This document shows, in pieces, positions 3,872 to 14,025 of a stretch of 59,676 nucleotides of DNA (its first letter is position 1; each line of letters opens with the position of its first letter). Position numbers and translations under genes: made by a program. Where the stretch lies: contig JAUYAK010000025.1 of assembly GCA_030693515.1 (NCBI GenBank), positions 1 to 59,676 of the forward strand, given 5' to 3'. The stretch comes from Opitutaceae bacterium (lineage in GTDB: Bacteria; Verrucomicrobiota; Verrucomicrobiia; Opitutales; Opitutaceae). The notes under the pieces were generated by a model. The model saw nothing but the letters and a program-made list of their open reading frames with translations, had not been told where the DNA came from and did no database searches.

Positions 3872-6517
3872 CTACTTGTTCAGAAACAAATCACTCTGCA
3901 CGATCGCGTGGACCAGCGAGCGCACACCGTAGCCCCCGGGCGCGGCGCGATCGAGAATCTTTTCCACGGCGGGGCGATCGATGAAGCGCACCGGGGCGCC
4001 GGTGGCGTAAACGACGAGCTGCTTCACGAGGTTGCGGGCGATGGCGCGTTCATCCGTCAGCAGGAGGCGCTTCAATTCGCGCACATCGGCAAACGTCCGG
4101 CCATCCGGCAGCTCGCCGCTGGCATCGACGGGCAGCGCGTAGTGGAAGGCGAACTTCTGCCCGCCGAAACCGATGCCCGGAGCGGGGGCCTTGCCCTCGA
4201 CACCCATCGCGCGGTAGTGCGTGCGGAAGCCACCCATCACATCGAAGCTCTCCAGCGCGAAGCCCGCCGGATCGATGCGGGTGTGGCACGAGGCGCACAT
4301 CTCCTGCGTGCGGTGCTTGGCCAGCTGATCCCGGATCGTGACGGCACCGCGGATATCGGGCTCCACCGCAGGCACGCCCGCCGGCGGCGGCGTGGGCGTC
4401 TCGCCGAGGATGCGCTCCATGATCCACACGCCGCGCAGCACCGGCGAGGTCGTCGTGCCGTTGGCGCTGACCTTCAGCACGCTCGCCTGCGTCATCAACC
4501 CGCCGCGCACGCTGTCCGCGGGCAGCGCGACCTTGCGGATCGCCACGCCCTCGACGGGCGGCAGACCGTAGTGGGCGGCGAGCTTCTCGTTCAGCATCGC
4601 AAAGTCCGAAGCGATGAGGTTCCGCGCCGGCAAATCGCCGCGGAGCAGCTCGGCGAAAAACGCCTGTGTCTCAAACAAGGCCGACTCCGCCAGCAGGTCG
4701 TCGAGGTAGTAGTCGTTGTAGAGCGCCTCGTCGGGGGCCGTCACGCCGATGCGCCGCAGGTCGAGCCAGTAGTCGAGAAACGCATCGGAGAACCGCCGCG
4801 CCCGCGGATCGTTGAGCCAGCGCTCGGTCTGCGCCCGCAGCGCAGCGGGCTGACGCAGCGTGCCCTTGTCCGCCAGCGCGCGCAGCGCGGGATCCGGCGC
4901 GGTGTTGCCGAGGAAGAATGCCAACCGCGTTGCGATCGCGTGATCGTCGAGCCGGCCGGGCTTTTCCTCGATCGAGACGAACTCGGGCGAGCACAGCACC
5001 GCAGTATAGCCCGCGATCATCGCCTCGGCGAAACTCGCCTGGTTGCCCAAGGCGTGCTCGACCACAGGGAGGAAGCGCCGCACCTCGTCGTCCGGGACGG
5101 GCCGGCGGTAGGCGTGGTTGATAAAATTCCGCAGCAAGCGGGGCGCATCCAGCGCGGGATGGGCCGACACCACCTCCGCCTGCGCGCCGGGCTTGTCCGA
5201 TTTGTTCAAGGGCAGGTCGCCAAAGAGCAGCGCATGCCCCGCCGTGGGCCAGCGCTCGTGGATCGGGCCCTCGACATCCATCCAGCGGAAGACGACGCCG
5301 GGCGAACCATCCTTCTCCGCGAGCGGATTCTGCCAGCGCGCCGCGCCAGGGCGGGAGCGAAAAAGCCGCGCCGCATCGACGCGGATCGTCTCGCCGGCAA
5401 GCAGCCAGACATCGAACTCCACCACCTCGGGCTTAATCTGCGCGTCAAAGGTCCCGAGCCAGCGCAATTGCCGCGGCGGCGTCTCGGAATAGACCGTGAT
5501 CGGCTCGGAGCGCCGGCCGCGCGCCACCTTGTCGAGGTCAGGAATCCACCAGCGATCCGGTTTCTTCGGATCGGTCTGCACGGTCGGGCCAACCCAGACG
5601 GTGTGCGTCTGGAAACGCAGACGGTAGCGGCCCGCGGCCGGCGCCTTGAAGTTCGTGAACTTGGGCTCGAGCGGCTCGTAGTTGCCCGCTACGACGCCCA
5701 CGCCCTCCAGATCGCGCGTCGCGGGATCGGCGGCACCGGCGGTCACGGGGGCCTTGCCCGCGCGCACCTCGGTCTGCGCCTCAAATCCGAGGACGGGAAA
5801 CGTCGCGCGCTCCGGGCTCGTGTTGAACACCGAGAATTTCATCGGCCCCGTGAAGCTCCGCGCCTCGCGCGCGTAATAGCGCGTCGTCGCAGCAGTGGGC
5901 TGCTCGGACGTCTTCGCCATCACCTGCCGCAACGCGTAGTCGGCCACACCGAGGTAGCGCGCCATCTGCACGTGCGAGACATCGAGGGCCTCGCCGACCT
6001 TGTTGAAGCGATGCGCCTCCCCGTCCTCTGGCAGCGCGTCCTTCACCTGCAGCCACGGCGCATGCAGCAGGTCGCGCAGGGCGTTCTCGTATTCGTAGCG
6101 GTTGAGGCGGCGGCGCGTGGCCCGGCCTTCGTCGCCGGCGCGCGCCTGCTCGGCCGCCGCGAGCGCCTGCGCCAGCGGCGCAACAAACTCGCGCACTTCG
6201 CCCGCGGCCGGCCGCGTCTTTTTCTTCGGCGGCATCTCGCCCAATTCCACGCGATCGTGAACCTTGAGCCACCGGGCAAAATTTTTCGGGTCACCCGGGT
6301 TTAGCGCGAGCGAAGTCAGATCGAGGTCACCTTTCTTTTCCACCGCGTCGTGGCACGCAGCGCAGTGCTTTTCGATGAACGCGGCGGCGGCCGCTGGTTG
6401 GGCTTCACCGATCGACGCCAAAAGCAGCGCCAGCGCACCCATCGTGAGTGATTTCAAAGGCGGGGTTGGAAAATGGACGTGGGGGCTCACGGGCATCGAT
6501 CGGATCGTATCGGCCAT
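3872..6517 (-). CDS. DUF1587/1595/1592/1588/1585 cytochrome-type secreted protein
   Basis: A large exported protein (881 residues from the ATG at 6517, which is preceded by GGAG; the frame stays open to 6610, and another ATG lies at 6496). A hydrophobic leader ([17 protein letters not shown]) precedes a haem-binding HCAACHD site. The typical series follows: DUF1587 ([16 protein letters not shown]), a carbohydrate-binding-like middle section ([15 protein letters not shown]), DUF1595 ([19 protein letters not shown]), DUF1592 ([18 protein letters not shown]), DUF1588 ([19 protein letters not shown] and [16 protein letters not shown]) and DUF1585 ([20 protein letters not shown]). It probably acts in the periplasm or at the surface in an oxidative degradation step with the DUF1552 partner downstream, an inference from the recurrent pairing. 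Confidence 0.9.
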
Positions 6518-6633
6518 TTTCTCCGGAACGTCAATTGACCGCTCGCCGGTTCTCCCGCCCGGACGACGGTGGCCCCGGCGCGGTGCAGCGTCCCAGCCTC
6601 GAACCAACACCAGGATCGGATGTCTAGGGCATC

Positions 6634-7182
6634 ATGAAATTCAAGCTGCTCCTGCTCCCCTTATTTCTCACCGCCGGCCCGCTGGTTCAAGCGGCGGTCG
6701 ACGCAGCCCTTTCCGTCGAAATCCGCCTCGGAAAGACGTTGCCGCCGCCGCCGCCGGCAGTGGTTGTGATCAAGGAATCCGCCCCGAAGGGCCCGCCGCC
6801 GTGGGCTCCGGCACACGGCGTCCGCCGCCACCACGTCTACTATTATTATCCCGGCGCGAATATATATTTCCGGCCCGAGGATCGGATTTGGTTCTACCTC
6901 GACGGTCGCGAATGGCGTTTCGCCGCCTGCCTGCCCACGAACCTCCGCGTGGACTTCGAGCGCAGTGTCTCGCTCACCATGGCAGCCGACAAACCCCACC
7001 AGTTTCACGACAAGGTGCAGGCCTACTATCCCGCTGACTATTTTGGGTCGGTGGTTCGGGTGAAGGAAAAGGACCCCAAGCCCGACAAAGACAAAACGGA
7101 TCGTGCTGACGACAGCTCGCCGGGCAGGAGCGATGCATCCCCCGGCAAGGGCCAAGGCAAGGGCAAAGGCAAAAGCAAGTGA
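6634..7182 (+). CDS. Exported protein with Tyr/Pro-rich core and Lys/Gly tail
   Basis: A 182-residue protein with a clear signal peptide (MKFKLLLLPLFLTAGPLVQA). The mature part has a proline run (LPPPPPA), then HHVYYYYPGANIYFRPEDR-type sequence and WFYLDGREWRFAACLPTNL, a pattern seen in small proteobacterial and verrucomicrobial exported proteins of unknown function (aromatic 'YYYYP' proteins). After a conserved-looking FHDKVQAYYPADYFG, the last ~40 residues are charged and low-complexity (KEKDPKPDKDK, GKGQGKGKGKSK). It is probably periplasmic or envelope-associated. It is divergent from the DUF1592 gene and convergent with the aldehyde dehydrogenase gene 15 bp away. Confidence 0.7.
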   Translation: MKFKLLLLPLFLTAGPLVQAAVDAALSVEIRLGKTLPPPPPAVVVIKESAPKGPPPWAPAHGVRRHHVYYYYPGANIYFRPEDRIWFYLDGREWRFAACLPTNLRVDFERSVSLTMAADKPHQFHDKVQAYYPADYFGSVVRVKEKDPKPDKDKTDRADDSSPGRSDASPGKGQGKGKGKSK

Positions 7183-7197
7183 CCCCCGCCCGCGCGC

Positions 7198-8760
7198 CTA
7201 CTTTCCGAATACGATCCCCTGCGCGAGCGGCAATTCCTTCGAGTAGTTGATCGTGGCCGTCTGCCGGCGCATGTAGGATTTCCAGGCGTCGCTGCCACTC
7301 TCGCGGCCGCCGCCGGTCTCCTTCTCACCGCCGAAGGCTCCACCAATCTCCGCACCGCTGGTGCCCAGGTTCACGTTGGCGATGCCGCAGTCGCTGCCGC
7401 ACGCACTGACAAAAAGCTCCGCCTCGCGCTGGTCGCCCGTGAAGATCGCCGAACTCAGCCCCTGTGGCACGGCGTTGTTGAGCGCGATGGCCTCGTCGAG
7501 TGTGCGATAGGACATCACGTAGAGAATCGGGGCAAACGTCTCGTGCTGCACGATAGCCCATGCGTTTTCCGCCTCGATGAGGCACGGCGAAACGTAGAAC
7601 CCGCCCGCCCGCGCCGCACCGGTCAGCCGCTGGCCGCCGGCGAGCACACGCCCGCCGTGCTGTTTCGCCGTCGCGATCGCCTGCACCCATGCTTCCGCCG
7701 CACCGAGGTCGATCAAGGGTCCCATCAGCGTCTCCGGGTCGAGGGGGTTGCCCACGCGCACCTGCCGGTAGGCCTCGATCAGCTTCTTCGTCAGTTTAGT
7801 CACGATTGACGCGTGGACGATCAGCCGGCGCGTCGAGGTGCAGCGCTGGCCGGCGGTGCCGACCGCGCCAAAGAGGATCGCGCGCAGCGCGAGCTTCAGA
7901 TCGGCCGAGGGTGCCACGATGATCGCGTTGTTGCCGCCGAGTTCGAGCAACGAGCGGCCGAAACGGCGCGCCACGGCCTCGCCCACCCTGCGCCCCATCC
8001 GCGTCGAACCCGTCGCCGACACGAGCGCCACGCGCTGGTCCGCCACCAGCGGCTCGCCGATGGCCGCATCGCCGCACACGAGCGAAAAGATCGCCGGATC
8101 GACGCCGCACTCACGGCACACGCGCTCGGCCATTTTCACGCACGCGACGGCGGTGAGCGGGGTTTTCTCGGAGGGTTTCCACACGGTGCTGTCGCCGCAC
8201 ACGGCGGCGAGCGCGCTGTTCCAGGCCCACACCGCCACGGGAAAATTAAACGCCGAGATGATGCCCACGACGCCGAGCGGATGCCACTGCTCCATCATGC
8301 GATGCCCGGGCCGCTCGCTCGCGATCGTGAGGCCGTGGAGCTGCCGCGAGAGTCCGGTCGCGAAGTCGCAGATGTCGATCATCTCCTGCACCTCGCCCTC
8401 GCCTTCGGCGATGATCTTGCCGGTCTCCAGCGTCACGAGCCGGCCGAGGTCCGCCTTGCGCGCGCGCAGCGCCTCGCCGTAGCGGCGCACGATTTCGCCG
8501 CGCCGCGGCGCCGGCACCTCGCGCCACGCGAGAAAGGCCCGCTGGGCCGCGCCGAGGGCGCGCCCGAGCTCCGCAGGCGTCGCGGTCGTCACGCGCCCGA
8601 TCACCGTGCCGTCGATGGGCGAACATTTCTCGATCACCGGGCCGGAGCCGAACCATTCGCCGGCAAACACGCCGGCGTTGTTCGCCTTGAGCCCCAGGCG
8701 AGGGAAGATTTCCGCCGCGACCTGCTTCACTGTCTTGGCCCGCGAGCCTTTCGTTTTCAT
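7198..8760 (-). CDS. ALDH7-type (antiquitin-like) aldehyde dehydrogenase, probable 2-aminoadipate semialdehyde dehydrogenase
   Basis: A 520-residue NAD(P)-dependent aldehyde dehydrogenase. The signature SERPGHRMMEQWHPLGVVGI followed by SAFNFPVAVWAWNSALA is close to antiquitin (ALDH7A1), the enzyme that oxidises 2-aminoadipate 6-semialdehyde to 2-aminoadipate in lysine degradation. The general base motif LELGGNNAI and the catalytic cysteine segment GQRCTSTRRL are intact, as are WKPSEKTPLT (cofactor binding) and the C-terminal NLGTSGAEIGGAFGGEKETG. The start at 8760 (MKTKGSRAK) lies 7 bp after the stop of the saccharopine dehydrogenase gene; an upstream in-frame GTG at 8793 would overlap that gene. 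Together with that gene and the DUF1338 gene it forms a likely lysine catabolic operon. The assignment to the ALDH7 subfamily is by motif, not by measured activity. Confidence 0.88.
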   Translation of the reverse strand: MKTKGSRAKTVKQVAAEIFPRLGLKANNAGVFAGEWFGSGPVIEKCSPIDGTVIGRVTTATPAELGRALGAAQRAFLAWREVPAPRRGEIVRRYGEALRARKADLGRLVTLETGKIIAEGEGEVQEMIDICDFATGLSRQLHGLTIASERPGHRMMEQWHPLGVVGIISAFNFPVAVWAWNSALAAVCGDSTVWKPSEKTPLTAVACVKMAERVCRECGVDPAIFSLVCGDAAIGEPLVADQRVALVSATGSTRMGRRVGEAVARRFGRSLLELGGNNAIIVAPSADLKLALRAILFGAVGTAGQRCTSTRRLIVHASIVTKLTKKLIEAYRQVRVGNPLDPETLMGPLIDLGAAEAWVQAIATAKQHGGRVLAGGQRLTGAARAGGFYVSPCLIEAENAWAIVQHETFAPILYVMSYRTLDEAIALNNAVPQGLSSAIFTGDQREAELFVSACGSDCGIANVNLGTSGAEIGGAFGGEKETGGGRESGSDAWKSYMRRQTATINYSKELPLAQGIVFGK

Positions 8761-8767
8761 GGTCGGC

Positions 8768-9856
8768 TCAATTCGTCGCCTTGGCGTCACCATACACCCG
8801 CCCGCCCCACTGCGTGCCGAGGAACTGCGGGAGTGTGATCGACTCCTGCTTCACGAAGCCCCGCGGCAGCGCTCCGCGCGCAAAGAGTTCGAGCACCGCC
8901 ACCACGCCGGCCGCCGTCGTGAGCTGGATGGCCGAGAGCCGCCGGCCGCCCACCGTCGCGCCGTGCATTTTTTTCACGAAGCTCCGCTGCACGAGATCCC
9001 CGTCCGTCTCGCCCACGGCGCTCACATAGAAGACCACGACATCGTGATCTGTGAGCGGCACCTCCTGATCGAAGATCTGCGTGAGCAGCTTCTGCTGCGC
9101 GCCGAGGTTCAGGTCCTGCAGAAGAAACTTCATCAGGTCGCGGTGGCCGGGGTAGCGCATCGTCTTGTAGTTCAGCTCGCCCACTTTTCCCGCGAAAGTC
9201 TCGCACATGGTCGCGACGCCGCCGCTGGTGTTGAAGGCCTCGTATTCCACCCCGTCGATCGTGAGGCGCTCCACGCCGTCGAGCGGCAGCGTCTCGATGC
9301 GCCGGCCGTCGTGCAGCGCCTCGCCGAGCTGGCAGTATTCGTTGATCAGCCCGGCGGTGCTCCAGCTCAGGTAATACTTCATCTGGTTGCCGGCGAACTG
9401 CGGGAGCGCGCCCACGCGCATCTCGACCGAGCGCACCCGATCAAGCGAGGCCGCCAGCGATCCGCCCACGATGTTGATGGCGCCGGGGGCGAGGCCGCAC
9501 TGCGGCATGAAGGTCGCGCCCTTGGTCTTGCGCGCGAGCGTGCGGATGAAGTTCGTCGTCGCCACGTCCTCCGTGAGGTCGAAGTAGGACACGCGCGCGG
9601 CCGCGCACGCCGCGGCGATGGCGCGGTTGAGAAAATAGGGCGCGGCACTCACGACGGCGTCGCATGATTTCACGAAGGTCGCGAGGGCCGCGGAGCGCGT
9701 CACGTCCACGCGCGTGGCCGCGGCCTTCTTCAGCCCGCGCAGCTTCAGGTTGGGCCGCACGTCGCCGAGCCGCACCGCCGAGCAGAAATCGCACGACTCC
9801 AAGAGCGTCGCGATCGTGCCGCCCACTTTGCCGCCGCCGATGATGCCGATTTTCAT
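8768..9856 (-). CDS. Saccharopine dehydrogenase family protein
   Basis: A 362-residue cytoplasmic oxidoreductase with an N-terminal Rossmann fold (MKIGIIGGGKVGGTIATLLE), then VVSAAPYFLNRAIAAACAA, YFDLTED and the subfamily motif MPQCGLAPGAINIVGG. The C-terminal domain shows KTMRYPGHRDLMKFLLQDL and VGETDGDLVQRSF. The family interconverts saccharopine with glutamate plus 2-aminoadipate 6-semialdehyde (the Lys9/SDH type). With an ALDH7 directly downstream the natural reading is the degradative direction: saccharopine is split and the semialdehyde passed on. A 22-bp GTAG-type repetitive palindrome lies just before its start (9859-9880). A partner lysine-ketoglutarate reductase is not in the window. 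Family is certain, exact substrate is inferred. Confidence 0.88.
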   Translation of the reverse strand: MKIGIIGGGKVGGTIATLLESCDFCSAVRLGDVRPNLKLRGLKKAAATRVDVTRSAALATFVKSCDAVVSAAPYFLNRAIAAACAAARVSYFDLTEDVATTNFIRTLARKTKGATFMPQCGLAPGAINIVGGSLAASLDRVRSVEMRVGALPQFAGNQMKYYLSWSTAGLINEYCQLGEALHDGRRIETLPLDGVERLTIDGVEYEAFNTSGGVATMCETFAGKVGELNYKTMRYPGHRDLMKFLLQDLNLGAQQKLLTQIFDQEVPLTDHDVVVFYVSAVGETDGDLVQRSFVKKMHGATVGGRRLSAIQLTTAAGVVAVLELFARGALPRGFVKQESITLPQFLGTQWGGRVYGDAKATN

Positions 9857-9858
9857 AG

Positions 9859-9880
9859 GTAGGAGCCCGCTTGCGGGCGA
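9859..9880 (+). repeat. GTAG-type REP palindrome
   Basis: GTAG followed by a small hairpin: stem GCCCGC, loop TT, stem GCGGGC (bases 9865-9878). It lies between the saccharopine dehydrogenase start and the DUF1338 gene. The GTAG head plus GC-rich hairpin is the form of REP sequences mobilised by RAYT (REP-associated tyrosine) transposases. A second copy with the same design is at 50375-50393. Confidence 0.6.
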
Positions 9881-9901
9881 TGATTGGAATGATGCTCAGC
9901 T

Positions 9902-11272
9902 TCAGGCGTGTCTCGCCTGCACGTTGCGCGGGTCCGTCGCGGCGATGATCACGCTCACGGACTTCTGGTTAAAGCCCTTGAAGCCGCCCTTGCGCTGGAG
10001 GTTCTCCAGATGGCTGCCGATCGCGCCGTCCCGAAGGAAGTTCTCGGCCTGCTCCGCGGTGATGAGGCCGCGCCCGAGCAGCACCTGCACGCGCGCCGGC
10101 CGCACGCGCCAGCGCTCGCCCTCGGTGAACGCCTGGCGCAGGAACTCGAAATCCGAGAACGGCCGCATGGTGTTCACGCCTTCGCGCGCAAGCTGATCGC
10201 GCAGACGGGCGAAGTCGAAGCGCGCCTCCAGGTGGTGCATCCCGGCCTGCAGAAAACTGTCGCCGTGCAACCCGCACCACAGCCCCACCGTGCGCAGGGC
10301 CGGCGCGGCGGGCAGCCGCTGCGAGGAAAAATCGATCTGCGTCTCCTCCGGCATCAGGTCCACATCGGCAAACACCACGATGCCCGCCACCGGCTGCTCG
10401 AGGATCTGAGCGCCCCAGCCCGCCTCGGCCCCGGCGTAGTAACGCTCGCGCTTGTGAAAACCCAGCTTCGCCAGAAACGCCATCAGATCCGCGAAGTGCT
10501 CGCGGGAGGAGCGGAAGGTATGGTGGTCGTGGTTGCCCCAGCCGAGCCCGAGCCGATCCTGGCGCCGCTTTTGAATCTGGCCCGCGCGGTTGCGCGCCTC
10601 CCAGAAGACCCGCTCCTCGGCGAAGAACAGCTCGGTCGCGACATCGCGGTTCACGAGGGCGAGCACGGCATCAAGCCGCTCGAACGCGTGCTTCACGCCA
10701 TCCGCATCGTCAGTGAAATCCCGCCGGCGCGTCCGCCACAGCTCGCGGGCGTGCAGCGCCGCACGCACAAACTCCGCGGTCGGCTCGCGCACCACAAAGC
10801 CGCGGTGCCCGAGCCGCTCGACCGCGGTGAGTCGCGCGCCGTTTTCTTCGCGCACAAGCGCGCGCCGCAGCCGCGAGCCCCATGCACCCTCGATCACGGC
10901 ACCATGATCGTGCGCCGCGATGAAATCCGCGACCGACTCCACGCGCAGCGCCAGCTCCGGCGCCGTGCCCTGGCGCACGACCACGCGCGGCAGCATCGCG
11001 CGCGGGTGCCACAGCACGGTCGTGCCAGCCGGCACCTCGACGCTCTCCTCCACAAAACCCACCGCGCGCAGCGCCTCGGCTTGCGCCGGCGTCGCCGCCA
11101 CATGGTCCACCCACTCGAAGAAATCGTTGCACGTTTCGTCGCGCATCCGCGCCGCCAAGCCCGCGGCCCACGGGTGTTTTTCCAAAAACGCCGTGATGAG
11201 CGTGCCGATGGCACGCTCGGCGTCGTGGCACAACGGCCAGTCAAACGCGGGAGTCGAAACGGAAGCGTTCAT
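9902..11272 (-). CDS. DUF1338 / HglS-like 2-oxoadipate dioxygenase/decarboxylase
   Basis: A 456-residue protein of the DUF1338 family. The segments EARNRAGQIQKRRQDRLGLG and WGNHDHHTFRSSR resemble the plant FLO7-type members more than the proteobacterial YdcJ form. DUF1338 enzymes (HglS) are Fe(II)-dependent and convert 2-oxoadipate to 2-hydroxyglutarate in lysine catabolism. Candidate metal ligands are the histidine in FFEWVDHVA (residue ~57), the NHDHH cluster (~247-251) and a later acidic residue near MHHLEARFDF. It is the first gene of a three-gene minus-strand unit with saccharopine dehydrogenase and ALDH7, which supports this role. Starts at 11272 (MNASVSTPAF) or 11290 (MAAPATM) are both possible; the frame continues further upstream without support. 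Confidence 0.82.
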   Translation of the reverse strand: MNASVSTPAFDWPLCHDAERAIGTLITAFLEKHPWAAGLAARMRDETCNDFFEWVDHVAATPAQAEALRAVGFVEESVEVPAGTTVLWHPRAMLPRVVVRQGTAPELALRVESVADFIAAHDHGAVIEGAWGSRLRRALVREENGARLTAVERLGHRGFVVREPTAEFVRAALHARELWRTRRRDFTDDADGVKHAFERLDAVLALVNRDVATELFFAEERVFWEARNRAGQIQKRRQDRLGLGWGNHDHHTFRSSREHFADLMAFLAKLGFHKRERYYAGAEAGWGAQILEQPVAGIVVFADVDLMPEETQIDFSSQRLPAAPALRTVGLWCGLHGDSFLQAGMHHLEARFDFARLRDQLAREGVNTMRPFSDFEFLRQAFTEGERWRVRPARVQVLLGRGLITAEQAENFLRDGAIGSHLENLQRKGGFKGFNQKSVSVIIAATDPRNVQARHA

Positions 11273-11390
11273 CGTGGCGGGGGCTGCCATGCGGAGACTC
11301 TGCCGCGCCGAGCCCGCAGTTAGAAGCGAAAAGGCCGGTCCGTGTCGGAGCTTTACCCCTTCGCCCGTGCCGCTAGTCCTCACCCACGCC

Positions 11391-11762
11391 ATGGCCGACG
11401 ACTCCGATCCCCCGCGCAAGCACTACGGGCTCAAGCCACGCGAATTCGAGCGAGTGAACGAACGCGCCGATGAGACCCTGCCCGGCGAAGAATCGCCGGC
11501 CGTGGACGTGCATGCCCTGCTGCGAGCCAACCACGAGCGCCGTCGCGCCGCCGGACTGGAGGAAGCCCCGCCGCCCGCCCCGCGCCGCTCGCGCCGCAAG
11601 CGCGACTACTGGCTCGTGCTCATCCCCCTTGATCTGTTTTTCGCCGGTGTGCTGATCGCGCCTAACGCCGGTTCCTCGCTGAAGCTTTACGCGCTCGCCG
11701 GCCTCGTGATGTTCACCCTCGGGTTCACGTGGGTGATGTGGTTCGTGGTCGACGACTACTGA
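11391..11762 (+). CDS. Hypothetical membrane protein with polar N-terminus
   Basis: A 123-residue protein starting at the ATG at 11391 (MADDSDPPRKHYGLKPREFE). The first ~70 residues are charged and proline/arginine-rich (NHERRRAAGLEEAPPPAPRR); the C-terminal part has two hydrophobic helices (YWLVLIPLDLFFAGVLIAP and LYALAGLVMFTLGFTWVMWF). This is probably an inner-membrane protein with a cytoplasmic N-terminal tail. No family is recognised. It is divergent from the DUF1338 gene and its last 7 bases overlap the SpoU-methyltransferase remnant on the opposite strand. Confidence 0.65.
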   Translation: MADDSDPPRKHYGLKPREFERVNERADETLPGEESPAVDVHALLRANHERRRAAGLEEAPPPAPRRSRRKRDYWLVLIPLDLFFAGVLIAPNAGSSLKLYALAGLVMFTLGFTWVMWFVVDDY

Positions 11763-11908
11763 CCCCGCCGCATCACGAGTTCCCACAGCAGCACGCCCGC
11801 CGCGACCGAAACATTGAGCGACTCGATCTTGCCGGTGCCGGGGATGGTCACGAGGCGCGAACACGCCGCCGCCAGCTCCCGCGCGAGCGCGGTCAAATCC
11901 TTGGCCAT
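11756..11908 (-). pseudogene. Remnant of a SpoU-family RNA methyltransferase gene
   Basis: This short frame encodes MAKDLTALARELAAACSRLV and then IPGTGKIESLNVSVAAGVLL, ending WELVMRRGQ. The C-terminal ~33 residues are almost identical to the end (motif 3) of the intact methyltransferase at 18957-19892, and more than 70 bases are identical at the DNA level. The preceding AKDLTALARELAAA matches a segment that lies about 60 residues earlier in the intact protein. The remnant therefore looks like a copy that lost the sequence between two similar ...ARELAAA / ...APELAAA stretches and everything upstream of AKDL. It lacks the methyltransferase core (motifs 1 and 2), so it cannot be an active enzyme. 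Confidence 0.75.
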
Positions 11909-12039
11909 GCCCCACTCTGCCCCGGTCCTCGCTGGCGTTGCAGCGAAAAGGCTCAGGCCCGGCAGGGCTCCACGCCAGGTTGGATGTAGCCCATCGTTTC
12001 CCGGGCGTCGTCCGACACCCTTCAAACGCGAACCACGGC

Positions 12040-14025
12040 TCACGGCACCTCGTAAACCTCGATCAGCGCGATGCCCGCCGCGCTGTTCACACCGGAAACT
12101 TGCGCGGTGTAAGCGGCGGGCGGCAGCGTCACAAGCAGAGCGGAATCGAGGCTTCCCGCCGGCAACGCAAAACCCCCGACCCGTTGTGCCGCCGCCGCGA
12201 GCACCGCCGTATCGCTTGCCACACTCCAGTCGTTGTTTTCAGCCAAAAGTTGCGTGCCCTGAAAAATGCGCAGCCGGGGGTTTGAGAGTGCGCCGGCGAC
12301 CCCAAACGCCGCCAGCGCCGGCCCCACGCCGCGCACCAACACCGACCGGGCGTGCTCACTGACGACAAAACCCGCGATCAGCACGCCCGCACCGGTGGTC
12401 ACCGCGCTACGCGCCGACATGTTGATCAGTCGCGCCCCGGACCCGCCGCCAGCATCGTAGGCCTCCATGAGCGCCACGCCGGTCGTTCCGCCCGCCCCGG
12501 TCACCTGCACTGTATAGCCGCCCGCGGCGAAATCGGCGAGCAGCGCCGCGTCGAGGCTCCCGCTTGGCAGCGGAAATGCGCCGACCGCCGTCGTCGTGGC
12601 GACCATCGCGGAAGCATTGCCCGCCGTGCCCCAGTCGTCGTTGGCCACGAGCGGCGTCGCGCCGGCATAGGCCGCGATGCGCGGATTCGGCAGCACACCG
12701 CTCACCCCGAAACCGGCGAGGGTCGGCCCGACACCGCGAAGCAGCAGCGAACGCGAGCCAGTCCCGCCCACCACGAATCCGACGATCAGCGTGCTGGCAT
12801 CAGCCCCGGCAAACGTGCGGACCGAAAGATTCACCATCCGCCCAGTCGTGCCGGCCACGGTGCCGAGCGGCTGCCATGCCGTCCGGCGCTGATCCCGGCG
12901 AAACTGCGGCCAGTCCGTCGCCAACGGTTCGATCGTGCCAGTGAACGAATAAATTTTTTTGTCCGAACAGCCGAGGTAGACGGCCCCATCGGTCGCAATC
13001 AGCGGCGAAGAGTCGGTCGCGTCGCCCAGCGTCGTCCGCCAGAGCAGAGCCCCATCGGCCCCAACCGCGTAGATCGCGTTGTTGCTCGATCCAAAAACAA
13101 CCGAGCCGTTGGCTCGCACCGCCGGGCTCGAAGCGATCGGCTTCAACGCTGGTTGATTGGCGCGCGGGTAGCGCCAGCGCTCGGTGCCATCGGCATTGAG
13201 CGCCACGAGCCGGCCGCCAAAGGACGTGAAGTAAACCGAGCCATCGGCACCGAGCGCCGGCGCCGCCTCGATCGTCTCGCGCGCATCGTGGCTCCACCGC
13301 AGCGTGCCATCGGGACGCAACGCGTAGAGCTTGGCGTCGCGTGAACCGACATAAATCGTGCCGTCCGCGGCAATCGCAGGCGAGCTGGTGACGTTGTCGT
13401 CGGCCGCAAAGCGCCACTTCTCCTCGCCCGCGGGCGTGATGGCGTAAAGACCGTTGTCCCAGGATCCGACATAGATCGTGCCGTCAACGCCGATGGCGGG
13501 CGAGGAGTCGATCCAATCGTTGGCCGGAAAAGACCATTTCAGTGTCCCGTCGGCACGCACCGCCACCAGGTTGCTGCCCGCGCCCACATAGATCGTTCCG
13601 TCCGCGGCGAGAGCTGGCGAGGAGGCGATGAAGGTCCCGGCCTTGAATTCCCATCGCTTGGTGCCATCGGGCCGCAAGGCATAGAGCACGCCGTCCCAGC
13701 CGCCGAAATAGATCGTGCCGTCCCCGCCGATGGCCGGGGTCGAATCGATCCAGTCCGGCGCGGTGAACACCCATTTCTGCGTGCCGTTGGCATTGAGCGC
13801 AAAGAGCCGGCCGGAAGGCGTGGCGCTCGTCGATGCGCCGACTTGGACGCCGATATAGATCGTGCCATCCGGTCCGACCGCGGGTGAGGACTGAATCGCC
13901 CCTGTCGTCGCGGTGGAGAGGGTCGTGAATGCCCAGCGCTGGGCGCCGTCGGTCTGCGATCGCAGGACTCCAGCCAAGGCCAGTGCCGCGATGAGCGTCG
14001 CAATTTTTTTCCAAAGCAAAGGCAT
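12040..14025 (-). CDS. Secreted PQQ-type beta-propeller protein with two C-terminal NDDW modules
   Basis: A 661-residue exported protein. A signal peptide is visible (MPLLWKKIATLIAALALAG; ATGs at 14025 and 14034 are both possible). Eight consecutive repeats of the form DGTIYVGSWDNGLYAITPAG with a following W are present (~residues 35-385), consistent with an eight-bladed PQQ/BamB-like propeller. Two copies of a ~125-residue module follow, each with NLSVR/NMSAR, GFVV, LLRGVGP.L, NP, NDDW/NNDW, GAF/GGF.LP.GSLD.ALL and a closing EAYD/EVYE. The second copy ends at the protein's C-terminus. The same module closes the Ig-repeat protein at 51122-53632. The propeller probably serves for recognition at the cell surface; no catalytic residues are evident. 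It follows the histidine kinase gene by 45 bp on the same strand. Confidence 0.82.
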   Translation of the reverse strand: MPLLWKKIATLIAALALAGVLRSQTDGAQRWAFTTLSTATTGAIQSSPAVGPDGTIYIGVQVGASTSATPSGRLFALNANGTQKWVFTAPDWIDSTPAIGGDGTIYFGGWDGVLYALRPDGTKRWEFKAGTFIASSPALAADGTIYVGAGSNLVAVRADGTLKWSFPANDWIDSSPAIGVDGTIYVGSWDNGLYAITPAGEEKWRFAADDNVTSSPAIAADGTIYVGSRDAKLYALRPDGTLRWSHDARETIEAAPALGADGSVYFTSFGGRLVALNADGTERWRYPRANQPALKPIASSPAVRANGSVVFGSSNNAIYAVGADGALLWRTTLGDATDSSPLIATDGAVYLGCSDKKIYSFTGTIEPLATDWPQFRRDQRRTAWQPLGTVAGTTGRMVNLSVRTFAGADASTLIVGFVVGGTGSRSLLLRGVGPTLAGFGVSGVLPNPRIAAYAGATPLVANDDWGTAGNASAMVATTTAVGAFPLPSGSLDAALLADFAAGGYTVQVTGAGGTTGVALMEAYDAGGGSGARLINMSARSAVTTGAGVLIAGFVVSEHARSVLVRGVGPALAAFGVAGALSNPRLRIFQGTQLLAENNDWSVASDTAVLAAAAQRVGGFALPAGSLDSALLVTLPPAAYTAQVSGVNSAAGIALIEVYEVP

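Follow-up and report, generated by a model that had tools for sequence, protein, structure and literature searches.

A predicted VOC-fold protein without a functional name seems to do the job of the plant lysine-degrading oxygenase in some soil and water bacteria

The O2-dependent step at 2-oxoadipate in lysine breakdown has been described from plants and Pseudomonas; rice FLO7 is a hydroxyglutarate synthase acting in lysine degradation and HglS belongs to the D-lysine route (PMC7286885). At the entry to the pathway, a bacterial lysine dehydrogenase paired with an aminoadipate-semialdehyde dehydrogenase is likewise on record, as SPO0234/SPO0235 of Ruegeria pomeroyi (PMC4334477). In the literature searched, whose coverage mostly excludes subscription papers and preprints, HglS, lysine catabolism and saccharopine are combined in a single paper (PMC7286885), and none of the papers listed links lysine 6-dehydrogenase or Verrucomicrobiota with hydroxyglutarate synthase. 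Here, we consider a three-gene locus on a 59,676-nucleotide contig of an Opitutaceae bacterium (JAUYAK010000025.1; the window, meaning this whole stretch), where an unannotated protein, ORF3, is encoded beside a putative lysine 6-dehydrogenase and a Delta1-piperideine-6-carboxylate (P6C) dehydrogenase of the aldehyde dehydrogenase (ALDH) superfamily. We consider it likely that the locus serves a lysine-dehydrogenase route in which ORF3 acts as HglS and FLO7 do, though it is unrecognisable as a DUF1338 protein by sequence.

Predicted fold and candidate active site of ORF3

ORF3 has no match in Pfam (E<=10), NCBIfam (E<=0.01) or the PDB (E<=1), in library scans run on positions 9902-11275, one residue longer at the start. 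Relatives are plentiful: 6808 proteins match at E<=0.001 among 7997 candidates scored, and wherever a name exists among the 120 matches listed, it is 'hypothetical protein'. A search of one genome per species detected 411 relatives, of which the best 80, at 50-87% identity, were kept. Most of these are from Verrucomicrobiota; Planctomycetota supply some, and a single record bears the label Ignavibacteriae. A 62-row alignment combines the window with 61 of these 80 loci, partial matches and some near-copies being excluded; its profile finds in the PDB a chance match alone (BfpB, E 0.4). The preliminary description had called ORF3 a DUF1338 protein, a label supported by the predicted fold but not by sequence, as PF07063 (cut-off 25 bits) matches none of the 62 members at E<=1, the window's own included, and nothing in the window's own genome. 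One apparent relative, in genome G118 (E 5.7e-4), proved to sit in the frame of an ABC ATPase and was not counted anywhere, and a second match in G230, of 32 residues, was left out.

The structural model was built with the 62-row alignment, a single-sequence AF2 prediction (pLDDT 36.8) having been discarded. In VIA-align, the top three rows for this model are rice FLO7 (6W1K, over residues 204-454), 3IUZ and 3LHO, above every row listed for HPPD or hydroxymandelate synthase (HMS). Pseudomonas putida HglS and Escherichia coli YdcJ fall below FLO7 with Z-scores of 11.9 and 11.8, and HglS does not exceed HMS. As modelled, ORF3 contains the central VOC fold of the DUF1338/HGLS family, and its fold is predicted to be closest to that of FLO7.

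The NHDHHTF motif of the preliminary description does exist, at residues 247-253, and is nearly invariant: all 62 members keep N247, D249, H250, H251 and T252 as well as R254, the residue just after the motif; H248 is kept in 61 and F253 in 57. HglS binds its metal through H70, H226 and E294 and its substrate through R74, according to PMC7286885, and these residues, counted along the PDB sequence, lie in R-H70-G-A-I-R74, N-H226 and F-G-E294-I-E-Q-R. FLO7 and short bacterial DUF1338 proteins share a D-H-x3-R motif, and ORF3 offers D249-H250-x3-R254, H346-H347 and E423. R254 stands four residues after the first histidine, exactly as do R74 of HglS and R64 of FLO7. The candidate metal ligands H250, H346, H347 and E423 are each invariant (62/62); H250 starts a modelled strand (250-255), H347 starts another (347-351), and E423 sits inside the last (417-427). 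A permissive profile alignment, itself weak, pairs D249, H250, R254 and E423 with DUF1338 counterparts (R254 with R59), bringing two members of the His-His-Glu triad, H250 and E423, into register. Taken with the lysine-operon context described below, the H-x3-R arginine argues for a dicarboxylic rather than an aromatic 2-oxo acid as substrate.

Gene neighbourhood and distribution across genomes

Locus counts refer to the best 80 of the 411 relatives, with flanks of up to 8 kb. At least one lysine gene is found in 54 of the 80, an association that exceeds chance, and in 31 of the 42 loci whose flanks reach 4 kb or more on each side. P6C dehydrogenase (at least 50% identity) occurs in 52 loci, one of which, L041, holds a partial match of 222 residues; lysine dehydrogenase occurs in 28, and lysine 6-transaminase in 15, identified on L093 (569 bits, cut-off 521), to whose copy the other 14 are at least 60% identical. 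The last two enzymes are never found together (0/80). Among P6C-dehydrogenase matches longer than 600 bp, 51 of 52 lie on the strand of ORF3. Measured in 55 loci from ORF3 to the closest ALDH or lysine dehydrogenase match on its strand, the gap has a median of 84 bp. All three genes of the window recur together in 26 of the 80 loci; the arrangement is thus conserved, and the three form a putative operon.

Some relatives also lie near a candidate for the next step. E. coli YdiJ is a D-2-hydroxyglutarate dehydrogenase (PMC9504171), and a YdiJ-related FAD/Fe-S gene stands on the opposite strand in seven of the 80 loci, within 260 bp of ORF3 in L060, L063, L071, L073 and L084 and some 2.7-3.1 kb away in L065 and L066. 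YdiJ is the best NCBIfam model for the L060 protein, but at 589 bits against a cut-off of 1350. Similar long genes lie beside lysine dehydrogenase in five loci without ORF3 (L138, L139, L142, L144 and L145), the L138 and L142 proteins scoring 583 and 588 bits.

In two genomes, G187 and G223, an HglS homologue (PF07063, 376 and 370 bits against a cut-off of 25; that of G223 below the NCBIfam HglS equivalog cut-off) precedes two genes on its own strand, for a lysine-dehydrogenase homologue (~40%) and then a P6C dehydrogenase (60-61%). This is the order of ORF3, lysine dehydrogenase and P6C dehydrogenase in the window, so HglS stands in the place of ORF3. The HglS homologue of L133 passes PF07063 (369 bits, cut-off 25) and misses the NCBIfam HglS equivalog (370 of 550). 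These placements rest on matches to a query from L129 and on PF07063 searches.

Two overlapping genome sets were surveyed. In the family set (80 genomes), ORF3 is present in 12, PF07063 in three, P6C dehydrogenase (E<=1e-150) in 15 and glutaryl-CoA dehydrogenase (E<=1e-80) in five; in the phylum set (288 genomes), the respective counts are eight (one false match dropped), six, 16 and four. The glutaryl-CoA dehydrogenase query, a gene adjoining the lysine genes in G091, was chosen post hoc for that position; in the PDB, nine of the ten top matches bear the enzyme's name, and in NCBIfam its best model is FadE (243 of 600), the glutaryl-CoA dehydrogenase model reaching 187 of 470, both below cut-off. 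Across both sets, 23 genomes carry P6C dehydrogenase: 12 have ORF3, five HglS and six glutaryl-CoA dehydrogenase (nine with either or both of the latter), and G009 and G317 have none of the three. ORF3 never coincides with either alternative, an outcome with a chance of 6.7e-5 were the genomes independent, which they are not; for HglS alone, glutaryl-CoA dehydrogenase left out, the figure is 0.014. Beyond these 23 genomes, three carry ORF3 (G023, G031 and G043), one carries HglS (G158) and one glutaryl-CoA dehydrogenase (G068); ORF3 and HglS are together in none of the genomes examined. A P6C-dehydrogenase tree of 60 rows, without G074 and several more of the 23, shows the HglS and ORF3 types interspersed: at least three changes are needed for the four HglS-type rows, and G037 (HglS) sits next to an ORF3 locus. 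At the L132/L133 end of this tree long branches come together, and the labels cluster only weakly (for all groups taken together, 50 of 200 shuffles gave a value as low).

L146 (G021, 6473-12689) and L143 (G009, 6078-12426) hold a second type of P6C dehydrogenase, with 59-60% identity. Its neighbours resemble, by eye, homoisocitrate dehydrogenase and homoaconitase, which suggests a different aminoadipate cluster.

Together, the FLO7 fold match, the HglS homologue in the place of ORF3, the nearby YdiJ-like gene of some relatives and the mutually exclusive distribution indicate that ORF3 probably works like HglS and FLO7. The part of the preliminary description that had lysine breakdown end in such an enzyme is thereby upheld, though not the saccharopine entry it proposed, which is taken up in the next section. 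The foremost competing explanation, which we regard as unlikely, is that ORF3 is an HPPD/HMS-type VOC oxygenase that acts on another 2-oxo acid, or on another intermediate, and simply travels with lysine genes. A Foldseek search of the model speaks for it, since all 50 rows listed are HPPD or HMS and none HglS (TM-scores 0.22-0.31 by query, root-mean-square deviation 17-21 A), as do the failure of P. putida HglS to rise above HMS in Z and the 11 of 42 well-flanked loci without any lysine gene. However, FLO7, 3IUZ and 3LHO outrank every HPPD/HMS row listed in VIA-align, all 62 aligned members keep the H-x3-R signature, and an HglS homologue takes the operon position of ORF3 in genomes that lack it.

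The Foldseek rows and the loci devoid of lysine genes weigh against an HglS/FLO7-like role as well, and further results lie on the same side. Compared with short DUF1338 proteins, the ORF3 profile reaches a probability of 4%, and there it is the N-terminus of ORF3, not its C-terminal half, that aligns with the DUF1338 N-terminus. The C-terminal half, aligned permissively with 42 short DUF1338 proteins (41 of the 120 listed, plus that of L134), reaches 6.5%, a value that one of 60 column-shuffled controls also attained; in this alignment the second histidine stays unpaired. The global setting yielded no alignment, and the comparison with HglS gives no detectable sequence relation. Two accepted HGLS subfamilies reach just 9.8% against each other, so profile comparison has little power here and does not suffice by itself. 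The three YdiJ-like proteins scanned all stay below the equivalog cut-off; the window's own genome holds no close YdiJ (best 34%), its candidates being two GlcD-like oxidases below the GlcD cut-offs. ORF3 is patchy: two further genomes from the same genus as the window lack it, and G023, G031 and G043 have ORF3 and no P6C dehydrogenase at E<=1e-150. Finally, the exclusivity counts ignore shared ancestry, and protein searches in the phylum set scored at most 5-6 first-look candidates per genome.

Entry into the pathway and the proposed sequence of reactions

The preliminary description reported three adjacent genes on one strand, and they are so arranged, all on the minus strand in the order ORF3, saccharopine dehydrogenase (SDH)-fold gene, ALDH (Table 1). 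ORF3 and the SDH-fold gene are separated by 45 bp; the latter overlaps the ALDH gene by up to 26 bp or nearly touches it, depending on the ALDH start, for which a later ATG at 8760 is available. The open frame of ORF3 reaches up to 11419, beyond the ATG used here.

Table 1. Features of the lysine locus and its border in the window
Feature	Coordinates	Strand	Assignment and basis
ORF3, unannotated protein, 456 aa from ATG at 11272	9902..11272	-	Predicted VOC-fold 2-oxoadipate dioxygenase/decarboxylase (HglS/FLO7-like)
ORF3, predicted site residues			Metal: H250, H346 or H347, E423; substrate arginine: R254
Lysine 6-dehydrogenase-like protein, SDH fold, 362 aa	8768..9856	-	PF03435 and PF16653; best PDB match 3ABI; proposed step lysine to P6C
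P6C (aminoadipate semialdehyde) dehydrogenase, ALDH7/antiquitin type, 531 aa from longest start	7198..8793	-	NF050084, PF00171, PDB matches
Planctomycete-type cytochrome gene bordering the operon	3872..6610	-	DUF1585/1587/1588/1592/1595

The ALDH scores 811 bits against NF050084, the NCBIfam equivalog for L-piperidine-6-carboxylate dehydrogenase (cut-off 730), and matches 6DBB, 6RTR (Pcd) and the antiquitin/ALDH7-like 2JG7, 2J6L and 4X0T in the PDB. Its designation as an antiquitin-like ALDH7 is therefore borne out, and by sequence it belongs to the P6C-dehydrogenase family. The neighbouring protein had been named saccharopine dehydrogenase; the fold family is right, but the enzyme identity is not confirmed, as its best solved relative is an L-lysine 6-dehydrogenase, the Pyrococcus horikoshii enzyme 3ABI (PMC10413350), matched over residues 1-250 at E 7.9e-21. 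It has the SDH fold and is closest to that enzyme in sequence and length (365 residues in the 3ABI chain), whereas its match to the saccharopine dehydrogenase domain of human AASS is weaker (E 2.1e-07). NCBIfam supplies no name, its single row being carboxynorspermidine synthase at 17 against a cut-off of 800. Lysine 6-dehydrogenase activity is what homology predicts for it. Lysine 6-dehydrogenase and lysine 6-aminotransferase carry out a similar C-6 deamination (PMC9854754), and with the 3ABI match and the dehydrogenase pair already known in bacteria, a saccharopine reading is not needed.

Under that reading, which we find improbable, the 8768-9856 gene would encode a glutamate-forming saccharopine dehydrogenase, with lysine-ketoglutarate reductase encoded elsewhere. 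It accords with the SDH fold, with the weak AASS match and with the fact that no NCBIfam model calls the protein a lysine 6-dehydrogenase. Against it stand the much stronger 3ABI match and the 15 loci, in other clades, in which lysine 6-transaminase, which forms the same product, replaces the SDH-fold gene and never accompanies it. Furthermore, a PF05222 search of the window's own genome returned a single protein, an alanine dehydrogenase (484 bits, cut-off 392), and so no candidate for the reductase that had been listed as missing, which the lysine-dehydrogenase route does not require. That genome also has no lysine 6-transaminase above cut-off.

The putative operon would thus degrade L-lysine through lysine 6-dehydrogenase, which by homology would convert lysine to P6C, and P6C dehydrogenase, likewise assigned by homology, which would yield L-2-aminoadipate; a putative transaminase encoded elsewhere would then produce 2-oxoadipate. 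ORF3, as an Fe(II)-dependent two-substrate alpha-keto-acid oxygenase of the VOC superfamily, would bind 2-oxoadipate through the metal (held by H250, H346 or H347, and E423) and R254. With O2, it would decarboxylate and hydroxylate this substrate to D-2-hydroxyglutarate, from which a D-2-hydroxyglutarate oxidase would form 2-oxoglutarate. For ORF3, we infer the substrate, the dependence on Fe(II) and O2, and the product. That ORF3 is instead a non-catalytic or regulatory VOC protein, 2-oxoadipate leaving through an unseen 2-oxoadipate dehydrogenase and the glutaryl-CoA route, is most improbable: glutaryl-CoA dehydrogenase is present in some P6C-dehydrogenase relatives, but a relative of it (E<=1e-80) occurs in none of the 12 family-set or eight phylum-set genomes with ORF3, the window's own included, and all four candidate ligands are invariant.

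Several other genes recur around ORF3. The cytochrome gene bordering the operon belongs to cluster 12, which is found in six relatives' loci (L034, L035, L038, L039, L046 and L056), and cluster 19, also in the window, is a second partner in four of these (L034, L038, L039 and L056). A thiolase-like gene (cluster 18; the L090 copy was scanned) lies downstream of ORF3 in six of the 80 loci (L080, L086, L090, L094, L099 and L101) and has no obvious function in the proposed route. L037, L040 and L041, none of which holds a full-length P6C-dehydrogenase match, carry small conserved genes: clusters 30 and 31 in all three, cluster 49 in L037 and L041, and cluster 53 in L040 and L041. Among more distant ORF3 loci, L112 (1905-4745) and L113 (6577-7995) have a class III aminotransferase of another subfamily as neighbour, and L112 also an ALDH of a different kind; these loci may serve another substrate.

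Comparison with described oxygenases and lysine operons

On balance, we lean towards the view that ORF3 founds a separate, previously unnamed branch of VOC two-substrate alpha-keto-acid oxygenases, in which a FLO7/HglS-like catalytic half is joined to an extra N-terminal part of ~200 residues. On this view, when Verrucomicrobiota and Planctomycetota break down L-lysine, the branch takes the place of HglS and of the glutaryl-CoA route at 2-oxoadipate, and its members, all lacking a functional name, number in the thousands. If so, sequence searches are blind to a further form of the O2-dependent 2-oxoadipate step known from plants and Pseudomonas, and this step is solved in three or more different ways among related bacteria. 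A family with thousands of database members would thereby be assigned a specific enzyme function that can be tested, and a pathway to which it belongs.

The closest described operon is lysdh-aasadh of R. pomeroyi (SPO0234-SPO0235), in which lysine dehydrogenase adjoins aminoadipate semialdehyde dehydrogenase as in the window; no third gene of the ORF3 type is named in the available part of that source (PMC4334477). Among VOC two-substrate alpha-keto-acid oxygenases, HPPD and hydroxymandelate synthase take aromatic substrates, in contrast to the dicarboxylic 2-oxo acid proposed for ORF3. P. putida HglS and E. coli YdcJ (PF07063; 6W1G/6W1H and 2RJB) differ from ORF3 in lacking a detectable sequence relation and in their lower Z than FLO7, and share with it the expected reaction, the H-x3-R spacing and, through the HglS homologues of G187 and G223, the position in the operon. 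Rice FLO7 (6W1K) and the bacterial DUF1338 structures 3LHO and 3IUZ are only ~15% identical to ORF3, which has no PF07063 match and carries an extra N-terminal stretch of ~200 residues, yet the D-H-x3-R motif (in FLO7 and the 3LHO type) and an E-x3-R near the end are common to both sides, and lysine degradation, in which FLO7 acts, is the role proposed for ORF3.

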